64,000 nucleotides of DNA from Arenimonas daejeonensis (GTDB lineage Bacteria > Pseudomonadota > Gammaproteobacteria > Xanthomonadales > Xanthomonadaceae): positions 2,852,001 to 2,916,000 of the forward strand of contig NZ_CP042453.1 of assembly GCF_007993735.1 (NCBI RefSeq). The letters are read 5' to 3'. The position numbers and the translations under genes were made by a program. The notes under the pieces are model-generated. The model was not told the origin of the DNA and did no database searches. It saw only the letters and a program-made list of their open reading frames with translations. Below, piece by piece: positions 1,882-27,596 of the stretch (its first letter is position 1; every line of letters starts with the position of its first letter).

Positions 1882-1988
1882 CGCATCGGTAGTGACCCCT
1901 GCCCGGTCGCACGCGAGCGGCATCCTGCCCAGCTAACGACCGGCCGTTACGGCATCCTGCCTCCACTTCAGGGGTCACTACCGATGCG
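1882..1988. repeat. Inverted repeat with 20-bp perfect arms
   Basis: Arms 1882-1901 and 1969-1988 are exact reverse complements over 20 bases. The 67-base interior holds a smaller hairpin (TAACG/CGTTA around 1934-1950) and a direct repeat CGGCATCCTGCC (about 1918 and 1950). It lies in the 631-base gap between the first two M13 genes, which also holds the terminator at 1800 and the structured element at 2070-2290. I see no gene in this gap. The function is unknown; it looks like a dispersed palindromic repeat. Confidence 0.65.
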
Positions 1989-22532: not shown

Positions 22533-24410
22533 TTAGATCGAGACCTTGGCGAGCTTCTTGCGCTTGCCGTAGATCAGGGTGGCAATGCCGCGCGAAACCG
22601 AGACCGCGGTGTACATCGAGGTCAGGATGCCGATGATCAGCGTGATGCCGAAACCACGGATCGGGCCCGAACCGAACACCGCCATCGCGATGCCGGCCAA
22701 CAGCGCCGTCACGTTGGCGTCGGCGATGGTGCCGGAAGCCTTGTCGTAGCCGTTGGCGATGCTCGACAGCGGCGTGTTGCCGTTGCGCAGCTCCTCGCGG
22801 ATTCGTTCGTTGATCAGCACGTTGGCGTCCACCGACATGCCCACGGTCAGGGCGATGCCGGCCAGGCCGGGCAAGGTGAGCGTGGCGCCGATCACCGACA
22901 TCACCGCCACCACCATCAGCAGGTTCAGCAGCAGCGCCAGATTGGTGACGATGCCGAACATCTTGTAATAGACCAGGAAGAACAGCAGCACGAAGGCGAA
23001 CGACCAGAACACCGCGGTCAGGCCGCGTTCGACGTTCTCGGCGCCCAGGCTCGGGCCGATGATGCGTTCCTCGATGATCACCATCGGCGCCGCCAGCGAA
23101 CCGGCGCGCAGCAGGCGGGCCAGGCTGGTGGCCTCGTCCATGCTGTCCAGGCCGGTGGTCTGGAAGTTGCGGCCGAAGACGCCCTGCAGGGTGGCGGCGT
23201 TGATCACCTCCTCACTGACGCGCGAGGTGCGCACTTCCACGCCATCCACCATCTTCACTTCCGGGATGGTCTCGATGTACACCGCGGCCATCAGCTGGCC
23301 GACGTTCTCGCGGGTGTGCGCCAGCATGCGGTCGCCACCGAGGCGGTTGAGCTCGATCGACACCGCCGGGGTACCGGACTGCGGGTCGAGCAGCGAGGTG
23401 GCGTTCACCAGCTGGTCGCCGGAAACGATGATGCGGCGCGACAGCAGGATCGGGCGCGGCTTGCCGTCCGGACCGCGCTCGCGCATGAAGTACAGGCGGG
23501 CGTTGGGCGGCACCACGCCGGTGCGGGCAGCCTCCATGGCCTGGGGGCCCAGGTCGACGACGTGGCGGTATTCCAGGGTGGCGGTGGCACCGATCAGCTT
23601 GCGGGCCTCGGCCGTGTCCTGCACGCCCGGCAGTTGCACCACGATTCGGCTTTCGCCCTGGCGCTGGATGACCTGCTCGCCGACGCCCAGGCTGTTGATG
23701 CGGTTGTCGAGCGTGGTGCGGTTCTGTTCGATCGCACCGTCCATGATCTGCTTGATCACGGTCGGGGTGATGCGGGCCAGCAGGCGGGTCGGCTGCGCCG
23801 GGTCCACGATCAGCTCGAGCTCGGGCGCCTCGCGCGAAATCGCGTTGCGCACGGCGGCCATGTCGGTGGCGTTCTTGATCTCCACCTGCACGCCCTCGGG
23901 CGCACGCGCCACGCTGGTGTAGGCGAACTTGCCTTCCCGCAGCACGGTCGATATCTCGTCGGCGAAGGCGTTGCTGCGCTTCTCGATCGCCGCCTTCTGG
24001 TCCACTTCCAGCAGGAAGTGCACGCCGCCCTGCAGGTCGAGGCCCATGGACATGGGCCGGGCGCCGGTCTTGAGCAGCCAGTCCGGCACGGTCGAGGCCA
24101 GGTTCAGCGCCACGGTGTAGCCGGTGCCGAGCTCGGCGCGCAGGCTGTCGGCGGCGGCCGTCTGCAGGTCGGCGTTGGTGGTGCGCACGACCACGTTGCC
24201 TTTTTCGATCGCCACCGACTTGGCCGGCACCTTGGCGGTATCCAGCACGCCGCGCACGCGCAGCACCAGCGAGTCGTCCACCACGTTGCCGCGGTTGGCC
24301 GCCACCTGCACCGCAGGATCCTGCGGGTAGAGGTTGGGCAGCGAGTAGAACAGGGACAGCGCGATCACCAGGGCGGCGACGACGTATTTCCAGGTGGAGT
24401 ACTGAAGCAT
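22533..24410 (-). CDS. secD: Protein translocase subunit SecD
   Basis: 625-aa inner-membrane protein with a large periplasmic P1 domain. Start ATG at 24410 (MLQYSTWKYVVAAL), preferred over the upstream TTG. Recognisable motifs include GLDLQGGVHFLLEVD (near residue 115), IVVQLPGVQDTAEARKLIG, and the membrane block GMSVDANVLINERIREELR with the catalytic-site Asp implicated in proton movement. It sits between yajC and secF, 19 bases before secF. Confidence 0.97.
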   Translation of the reverse strand: MLQYSTWKYVVAALVIALSLFYSLPNLYPQDPAVQVAANRGNVVDDSLVLRVRGVLDTAKVPAKSVAIEKGNVVVRTTNADLQTAAADSLRAELGTGYTVALNLASTVPDWLLKTGARPMSMGLDLQGGVHFLLEVDQKAAIEKRSNAFADEISTVLREGKFAYTSVARAPEGVQVEIKNATDMAAVRNAISREAPELELIVDPAQPTRLLARITPTVIKQIMDGAIEQNRTTLDNRINSLGVGEQVIQRQGESRIVVQLPGVQDTAEARKLIGATATLEYRHVVDLGPQAMEAARTGVVPPNARLYFMRERGPDGKPRPILLSRRIIVSGDQLVNATSLLDPQSGTPAVSIELNRLGGDRMLAHTRENVGQLMAAVYIETIPEVKMVDGVEVRTSRVSEEVINAATLQGVFGRNFQTTGLDSMDEATSLARLLRAGSLAAPMVIIEERIIGPSLGAENVERGLTAVFWSFAFVLLFFLVYYKMFGIVTNLALLLNLLMVVAVMSVIGATLTLPGLAGIALTVGMSVDANVLINERIREELRNGNTPLSSIANGYDKASGTIADANVTALLAGIAMAVFGSGPIRGFGITLIIGILTSMYTAVSVSRGIATLIYGKRKKLAKVSI

Positions 24411-24466
24411 GGGCGACAACCGGTGGCGGCCCGGTCAGGGCCGTGGGTGATTCGGATGGGGACGGT

Positions 24467-24805
24467 TCAGGCGGACTTCAACGTGCCCTTGGGCAGGACC
24501 GCGGTGACGGCGCCGCGCTGGACCTTGATGCTGACCTTGTCGGCGACTTCGACGCTGACGAAATTCTCGTCCAGGCCGTCGATGCGGCCGGCGATGCCGC
24601 CGCTGGTGATCACTTCGTCGCCTTTCTGCAGTTTGGACACCAGTTCGCGGTGTTCCTTGGCGCGCTTCATCTGGGGACGGATCATCAGGAAGTACATGCC
24701 CAGGAACACGGCGCCCATCAGCAGGAAGCTCGGCAGGGGGCTCGGGGCGGCCTGGCCGGCGGCTTGGGCGGCGGCCGGGGAAATCAGAATATCGAGCAGG
24801 GACAT
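24467..24805 (-). CDS. yajC: Preprotein translocase accessory subunit YajC
   Basis: 112 aa with one transmembrane segment (about 25-45; FLLMGAVFLGMYFLMIRP) and a basic cytoplasmic tail with KLQKGDEVITSGGIAGRI, the YajC signature. It associates with SecDF-YidC. First gene of the yajC-secD-secF operon; the promoter must lie in or beyond the repeat-filled gap upstream (24806-25409). The usual queA-tgt-yajC-secD-secF order is kept, but the gap separates yajC from tgt. Confidence 0.96.
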   Translation of the reverse strand: MSLLDILISPAAAQAAGQAAPSPLPSFLLMGAVFLGMYFLMIRPQMKRAKEHRELVSKLQKGDEVITSGGIAGRIDGLDENFVSVEVADKVSIKVQRGAVTAVLPKGTLKSA

Positions 24806-24892
24806 GGGCTTGGCGTCTCGCTAGTGAATTTAGCGCGCAAGTATGCCACAGGGCGCCACCCCCTGCCCGCCCCGGCTTGCGCTCCCTTCGGG

Positions 24893-25112
24893 GCGCAAGA
24901 AGGACTGTCTTGCTCGCATCCGGGTGGTTGGGGGTGCCGGGATCGTTCGTGGCGATAGGCCGCCGCACGAGGAAACTTTCCCGGACACGCCGCAAGTACG
25001 TCCATGTAGGCTCTTCAGCGACGTCCGTGTCGCTGAAGGTCCGGAAAAGTTCCCTCGCACGACGTCCTGTGGTCGATCTGGGCCGGGCCATCGAATTCGA
25101 AAAGCCTTGCGA
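24893..25112 (-). repeat. Cloverleaf-like structured repeat, copy C (family T)
   Basis: Reverse-strand copy. The outer stem is formed by 25040-25060 and 24965-24985 (21 bp; four irregular pairs, all G-T or T-G on the minus strand). Hairpin 1 is 25013-25022/25029-25038, loop ACGGAC on the minus strand. Hairpin 2 is 24997-24999/25006-25008, loop ATGGAC. The flank GGCGGCCTATCGCCACGAACG is conserved with copies A and B. Stem sequences differ from copies A and B but stay paired. It faces copy B 5' end to 5' end. Confidence 0.78.
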
Positions 25113-25176
25113 GCCCGTCGCTTTGCTGCCCTGTGTGGTTCCAGGTTCCGAATGCCTGCCAGAAGCCGAGGCAAGC

Positions 25177-25400
25177 GAGCTCTTGCCCCAAAACGGAATC
25201 CCGGCCCGGACGGTCCGCAGGTCGTCGTGCGTGAGGTCGCTTTCCGGGGCTTCGAAAACATGGACGTTTTCGAAGAGCCTCCATGGATGGATTCACGGCG
25301 TCCCCGGAAAGCGACCTCACGTACGGCGGCCTATCGCCAGGAACGAGCCCGGCGCACCGAACCCACCGAACACGAGCAAGTCAGGCCTTCTTGCGCGGCA
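25177..25400 (+). repeat. Cloverleaf-like structured repeat, copy B (family T)
   Basis: The outer stem is 25227-25249 with 25302-25324 (23 bp, one G-T wobble). Hairpin 1 is 25250-25259/25266-25275, loop ATGGAC. Hairpin 2 is TCC/GGA at 25280-25282/25289-25291, loop ATGGAT. It shares the GGCGGCCTATCGCCAGGAACG flank and a later GAGCAAG...CTTCTTGCGC hairpin with the other copies. Its right edge reaches within 10 bases of the tgt stop codon. With copy C it fills most of the 604-base gap between tgt and yajC, where I find no gene. Confidence 0.78.
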
Positions 25401-25409
25401 AGCGAGAAC

Positions 25410-27596
<2,187 letters not shown>

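Follow-up and report, generated by a model that had tools for sequence, protein, structure and literature searches.

A dispersed intergenic element with two GGA-bearing loops, apparently related to TwoAYGGAY RNAs, as a candidate CsrA decoy in Arenimonas daejeonensis and other gamma-proteobacteria

Between tgt and yajC, Arenimonas daejeonensis carries two facing copies of an element that folds into a long stem with two hairpins, and a third copy lies elsewhere in the window (the whole 64,000-nucleotide stretch of DNA that was analyzed). The locus raises the questions of what kind of element this is, whether its strand folds as RNA or as DNA, and why its copies face one another.

Fold and arrangement of the element

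The core of copy C (24961–25062, minus strand) and that of copy B (25227–25326, plus strand) are flanked by yajC on one side (24467–24805, minus; Pfam PF02699, E 1.3e-28) and by tgt on the other (25410–26534, minus; PF01702, E 7.3e-162), while the core of copy A occupies 2119–2220 on the plus strand. A preliminary description of the sequence had placed the three copies at these sites with one shared fold, and this is borne out: A, B, and C all match one covariance model, R1 (106.8, 103.6, and 99.3 bits, respectively, against a model itself built partly from these copies), and all fold, with z-scores of −6.96, −10.49, and −7.59; for each copy, 0 of 200 shuffles were as stable. R1 was derived from copies with intact loops.

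Each copy consists of an outer stem of about 23 pairs around hairpins 1 and 2. In A, B, and C, hairpin 1 has 10 bp and the loop AYGGAC, and hairpin 2 has 3 bp and the loop ATGGAY, with a GCC/GGC clamp around it. Sequence and fold place the loops of copy B at 25260–25265 (ATGGAC) and 25283–25288 (ATGGAT), both on the plus strand. The inner base pairs at hairpin 2 of this copy differ slightly between two fold predictions, and the minimum-energy fold of copy C opens hairpin 2 in favor of an alternative pairing. The earlier term "cloverleaf-like" is a loose one for what is a long rod with two capping hairpins. The pairing details given at that time were reproduced on recounting: four of the ten hairpin 1 pairs differ between B and C, all four being compensated; hairpin 2 reads CCC/GGG, TCC/GGA, and TAC/GTA in A, B, and C; and all eight irregular outer-stem pairs (three in A, one in B, four in C) are G-T on the element strand.

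Alignments of homologs show the same pattern. Among the 37 distinct homologs of alignment A2, standard pairs fill 98.0% of pair cells, versus 68.2% after shuffling and 37–46% when the partners are slid; both sides have changed at 33 of 39 pairs, and the covariation score is 0.775 versus 0.197 for shuffled alignments, none of 500 shuffles reaching the observed value. In A4, which holds 109 further copies from named gamma-proteobacterial records, mostly of other genera, aligned by fitting to the model, 92.4% of cells are paired and the score is 0.826 versus 0.172. On the element strand, G-T pairs outnumber A-C pairs by 52 to 4 in A2, by 52 to 9 in A3 (which contains five self-antisense rows) and, more weakly, by 115 to 46 in A4. 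Given this covariation and the excess of G-T over A-C, it is the element strand that folds, whether in RNA or in single-stranded DNA, and selection on that folded strand is well supported. The preliminary description had taken the polarity to mean selection as RNA; selection on the folded strand agrees with the G-T excess, but the polarity fits single-stranded DNA equally well.

A blastn search of the 3.03-Mb genome gives 31 copies, not counting a short piece and some self-antisense pieces. A model search of the whole genome, the step proposed earlier for looking beyond A, B, and C, likewise returned 31 copies of at least 84 bits, plus five self-antisense matches near 30 bits. The copies are mostly intergenic and comprise 21 that are B-like (87–100% identical to B) and 10 that are C-like (73–78%). 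Every C-like copy (10 of 10) has a B-like partner 40–120 bp away on the opposite strand, with the 5′ ends facing. In the window, this divergent C-B pair unit spans 24936–25353 and has the inverted flush ends GCCGGG...CCCGGC; across the 21 B-like copies compared, the similarity of paired copies mostly stops near these ends, where no target duplication was visible by eye.

Five B-like copies without a C partner (L008, L010, L015, L019, and L020, the last being copy A) have a different element, D, in the same divergent position. The example in the window (1882–1988, minus strand) lies back to back with copy A and forms a long hairpin of another kind, in which the motif GCAGGATGC occurs twice (fold of 1880–2025, z −5.75). 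Element D is unrelated in sequence to the B/C element and has two GCAGGAYGC motifs on the minus strand; its motif CAGGAYG is the repeat described for CsrB (PMC7652899). Between copies, the long stems of D are swapped wholesale with complementarity kept.

Two other features of the surroundings were recorded. A CTTGC..GCAAG hairpin with CTGTCTTGCTCG forms a further repeat at 24873–24916 and 25370–25405 of the window, beyond the pair unit, and this repeat borders many other copies. The genome also has two RAYT-type genes, one (L032, G000:C1:1427871) whose frame passes the NF047646 cut-off and one (L031, G000:C1:567213) that is split across two overlapping frames.

Distribution, locus history, and relation to known families

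Among 25 tgt-yajC loci of the genus with YajC, a model search found the pair only in this genome and a single copy in G015; in 19 of the 24 other loci, the gap measures 60–188 bp. In G003, another species of the genus (L277, compared with window positions 24300–26700), the segment that holds B, tgt, and a portion of queA aligns in the reverse orientation with respect to yajC, so that tgt is still followed by a B-like copy there. For the interval between ompW and an S1/P1 nuclease gene of Stenotrophomonas, a 1.5-kb query was matched over its full length in 12 of 91 genomes, and both elements are present in all 12. Eleven shorter loci belong to other species; five lack the anchors, and in the six that are readable between anchors the gaps of 40–67 bp are too short for the element. 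By eye, each ompW-nuclease position has at least two element kinds in varying combinations, and partial copies resemble deletions at short repeats (L290, L291). Other palindromic repeats were seen, also by eye, inside the hairpin 1 loop (L293, L296) or the hairpin 2 loop (L292, L299) at this Stenotrophomonas locus, as if the loops of the element acted as insertion targets.

By blastn, matches occur in 19 of 100 genomes, this one included. G371 and G508 belong to the same family as this genome, and the G508 locus is 100% identical to Stenotrophomonas maltophilia E301. The covariance model, with at most ten candidates scored per genome, detects the element at E up to 0.001 in 73 of the 369 genomes sampled from the class, and in 66 of 272 genera; carriers among the matches listed include Marinobacter, Rheinheimera, Halopseudomonas, Stenotrophomonas, Microbulbifer, Marinimicrobium, and Zobellella. 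Loci in named records were collected with a pattern in which most of hairpin 2 was prescribed, and 80 of at least 119 stretches were used; on these 80, the model gave 109 matches in 74 loci. Nineteen of the 23 neighbors less than 300 bp apart in these loci are divergent, four are tandem, and none is convergent; therefore, divergent pairing recurs outside this genus. Four tandem copies 79–80 bp apart occur on an AT-rich, Saccharophagus-like contig (L135, 3110–3749), unlike the usual divergent pairs. A search of plasmids with one relative (L067) gave no match.

The preliminary description did not recognize the element among known families. This stands to the extent that no Rfam family reaches its gathering score anywhere in the window, but the element is apparently a distant relative of TwoAYGGAY (RF01731), and its antisense strand resembles Ysr224 (RF02770). 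When E up to 10 is allowed, this genome has a single RF01731 match, a C-like copy with 27.9 bits against a cut-off of 43. In the class sample, 30 of the 369 genomes have an RF01731 match at E up to 0.01, 15 of them over the cut-off; here too a genome has multiple copies, some of which are arranged as divergent pairs. Of 10 RF01731 loci, 8 were long enough to fold, and most of those folded have the anatomy of the window element, an outer stem bearing two hairpins whose loops are of the AYGGAY type. Model R1 recovers five of the 10 RF01731 loci with E below 1e-4 (top score 70.9 bits), and the RF01731 model matches 2 of 18 R1 loci, both below its cut-off. The tandem G-A pairs described in one stem of TwoAYGGAY (PMC4333381) are absent from hairpin 1 of A, B, and C, which is fully paired; by eye, they seem to be present in the relatives L044, L045, and L047 from the same order. 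Because the window element falls below the cut-off yet shares the anatomy and the cross-matches, we regard it, from these comparisons, as a relative beyond the curated TwoAYGGAY family. What is new is a large multi-copy branch near TwoAYGGAY; the kind itself is already known. TwoAYGGAY-like RNAs were described in 2010 with no function assigned (PMC2864571), and Rfam clan CL00106 holds both TwoAYGGAY and Escherichia coli CsrB (RF00018).

Ysr224 matches the antisense strand in 6 of 18 R1 loci (L064, L067, L071, L074, L077, L092), all below its cut-off of 70 bits (best match E 3.4e-5, 38 bits). Copies B and C are also matched weakly, again on their reverse strand. This antisense strand has no GGA loops, a point against a CsrA-binding role. 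Ysr224 appears in one list of the 20 most prevalent small RNAs (sRNAs) (PMC9029176), and in Yersinia ruckeri it is reported as multi-copy, with copies that differ in expression (PMC12112432). In many cases, a Ysr224 annotation may denote a member of this repeat family assigned to the wrong strand. Rfam matches to 24850–25420 at E up to 10 were mainly microRNA precursors of plants and animals (the best, MIR842, with 33.3 bits against a cut-off of 85), which were rejected because they are generic long hairpins.

The loops as candidate CsrA sites, and other explanations

Across the 37 homologs of A2, both loops read C-A-N-G-G-A-N-G, in which only the two N positions vary freely and all other letters are invariant. 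Among the 171 distinct rows of A3 and A4 (five of them self-antisense), 140 have exactly two CANGGANG motifs, 2 have three, 26 have one strict motif, and 3 have none, loop conservation being inflated in such counts by the way copies were collected, since R1 derives from intact copies and the named loci from a pattern that prescribes the greater part of hairpin 2. The two motifs are 23 nt apart in 127 of the 140 two-motif rows, and only 2 of 3420 shuffles contained two or more motifs. Folded as single sequences, only 60 of the 109 A4 rows present two GGA-bearing loops.

CsrA prefers an ANGGAN hexaloop, in which it contacts the A and the GGA, and a CsrA dimer bridges sites 10–63 nt apart, best above 18 (PMC7652899). 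Because each loop of the element is a CsrA-type site and the two are 23 nt apart, one dimer could bridge both. Hairpin 1, with its 10 bp, departs from the short stems of SELEX ligands, most of which have four or fewer contiguous pairs (PMC7652899). CsrA binding has already been suggested for TwoAYGGAY (PMC4333381). Element D, though unrelated in sequence, adds to the case with its own two CAGGAYG motifs on a long variable stem. This genome encodes a single CsrA with an intact csrA frame, in which R44 is present. In cross-tables compiled by hand from the search listings and ignoring phylogeny, CsrA was found in 68 of the 73 element-bearing genomes and in 245 of the other 296 (one-sided p 0.016); for near-complete genomes, the corresponding counts are 59 of 60 and 220 of 253 (p 0.005). 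CsrA was not found in the element-bearing genomes G107, G167, G198, G293, and G440, of which G293 is a 98% complete draft in 270 contigs. We take this co-occurrence as weak evidence for a link to CsrA.

In our judgment, there is an even chance that the copies act as dispersed CsrA decoys, each with two sites and carried on read-through transcripts, and that they have spread in the form of divergent pairs. At the RNA level, each element would let a single CsrA/RsmA dimer dock, with a long stem, almost unconstrained in sequence, presenting two hairpins whose ANGGAN loops are closed by C-G. Scattered intergenic copies would be transcribed mainly by read-through, and a divergent pair would expose one sense site to transcription from either direction. 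The copies could then jointly titrate CsrA, as a dispersed counterpart of the CsrB/RsmB sRNAs, or CsrA could instead be drawn to the carrier mRNA; the divergent pair would be the unit of spreading, in the manner of a MITE. The interval 24800–25450 contained neither a promoter nor a terminator motif, and our literature search found no paper joining CsrA with repetitive extragenic palindromic repeats and GGA, and none on repetitive palindromic intergenic hairpins of the Xanthomonadaceae.

The main rival is a REPIN- or MITE-like mobile DNA hairpin, in which the pair would fold as single-stranded DNA and be moved by a Y1 (RAYT-type) transposase, the loops and fold being kept for recognition. We consider this possible, though on balance doubtful. 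The multi-copy, intergenic, inverted dimers, with divergent neighbors common and convergent ones missing, are what it predicts, as are flush inverted ends with no target duplication seen by eye, and this genome has a RAYT gene over the NF047646 cut-off; the G-T polarity, moreover, suits single-stranded DNA as well as RNA. RAYT was found in 64 of 73 element-bearing genomes versus 188 of 296 others (p 2.4e-5 in the same hand-compiled, phylogeny-ignoring tables), a stronger association than that of CsrA, but was not detected in nine element-bearing genomes (G152, G167, G171, G177, G190, G202, G318, G397, and G402). Neither of the two RAYT loci of this genome coincides with a copy found by blastn, the GTAG or CGTC tag of REPs as described in PMC3733652 is missing, and recognition by a transposase leaves the free N positions within ANGGAN unexplained. 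A hairpin acting at the 3′ ends of neighboring genes, for transcription stop or mRNA protection, is very unlikely. It would suit the mostly intergenic placement, but it does not account for the loop letters, no terminator motif was found at 24800–25450, and the upstream gene lies on the same strand in 26 cases and on the opposite strand in 27 (n = 57 of the 59 non-window A3 rows, 3 of them self-antisense; rough ORF caller). Any role tied to a neighboring gene was set aside for the same lack of orientation bias in these 57 rows.

The strangest feature is that copies in the same genome may be nearly identical in hairpin 1 and have outer arms that are nearly unrelated to each other yet mostly self-complementary. 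In 13 same-genome pairs with hairpin 1 at least 90% identical, outer-arm identity is 0.25–0.75 (mean 0.42), compared with 0.36 (sd 11%) between organisms, in a comparison of 62 pairs from 9 labeled organisms with arms aligned without gaps. The core and the outer stem seem to differ in history, and the outer stems are longer and more perfect than a docking RNA would appear to require. Template switching or palindrome correction at replication forks might keep or remake the arms, so that much of the outer-stem covariation would reflect mutation and not selection; we regard this as rather improbable, and such a process could act beside either a CsrA decoy or a REPIN-like hairpin. It is consistent with these 13 diverged pairs, with B-like copies of this genome that have CGC, CTC, or CTT in one arm and the exact complement opposite, and with paired changes in orthologous copies of sister Stenotrophomonas species. 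However, a G-T to A-C ratio as skewed as that in A2 is unexpected from a strand-symmetric process, and the conservation of the loops is left unexplained. Ten Stenotrophomonas orthologs compared with one reference have 14 double changes, 13 of which preserve the pair and several of which are common by descent, but also 12 single changes, and 5 of the 21 B-like copies (L009, L010, L016, L018, and L019; by eye) have one-base losses unmatched in the other arm or strand.

A broader version of the CsrA decoy reading, which we hold to be improbable as a whole, posits a self-spreading class of elements with a dual-CsrA-site head and a copy-specific palindromic stem, which would re-tune CsrA genome-wide and supply the missing xanthomonad RsmA antagonist; TwoAYGGAY and Ysr224 would be branches of this class, and the outer stem would be renewed at the DNA level, for example by template switching or inverted copying. 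Xanthomonas is reported to be without RsmB-type antagonists (PMC3937308), and this makes the decoy reading testable. If CsrA decoys they are, TwoAYGGAY-like RNAs would gain a broad gamma-proteobacterial base and a testable role, the RsmA antagonists reported missing in Xanthomonas (PMC3937308) would have a candidate, and a regulator binding site would have been spread by a repeat family instead of residing in one sRNA gene. Outer stems that are copy-specific yet paired also pose a clean question of how bacterial palindromes are made and kept.

Comparison with known systems

The element resembles TwoAYGGAY in its long variable outer stem, its two hairpins, the AYGGAY loop of hairpin 1, and its occurrence in multiple copies, some in divergent pairs; it differs in that the window copies score far under the TwoAYGGAY cut-off, hairpin 1 is fully paired, and hairpin 2 is shorter and followed by a conserved ATTCACGGCGT. 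Ysr224 is likewise multi-copy and matches the reverse strand of the element, but it is defined on the opposite strand, and every match seen is under its 70-bit cut-off. With REPs and REPINs, the element shares scattered intergenic palindromes, inverted dimers, and a RAYT in the genome, whereas it is about 100 nt long versus 20–40 for a REP, has two inner hairpins, and lacks the GTAG/CGTC tag. In comparison with MITEs, which have terminal inverted repeats and a target-site duplication, the paired copies show inverted flush ends, and no duplication was visible by eye. Like CsrB/RsmB (RF00018), it places GGA in hairpin loops at a spacing fit for a CsrA dimer; however, CsrB/RsmB gathers many sites in one sRNA gene, whereas here a single pair of putative sites, known from sequence, is carried by each dispersed copy.
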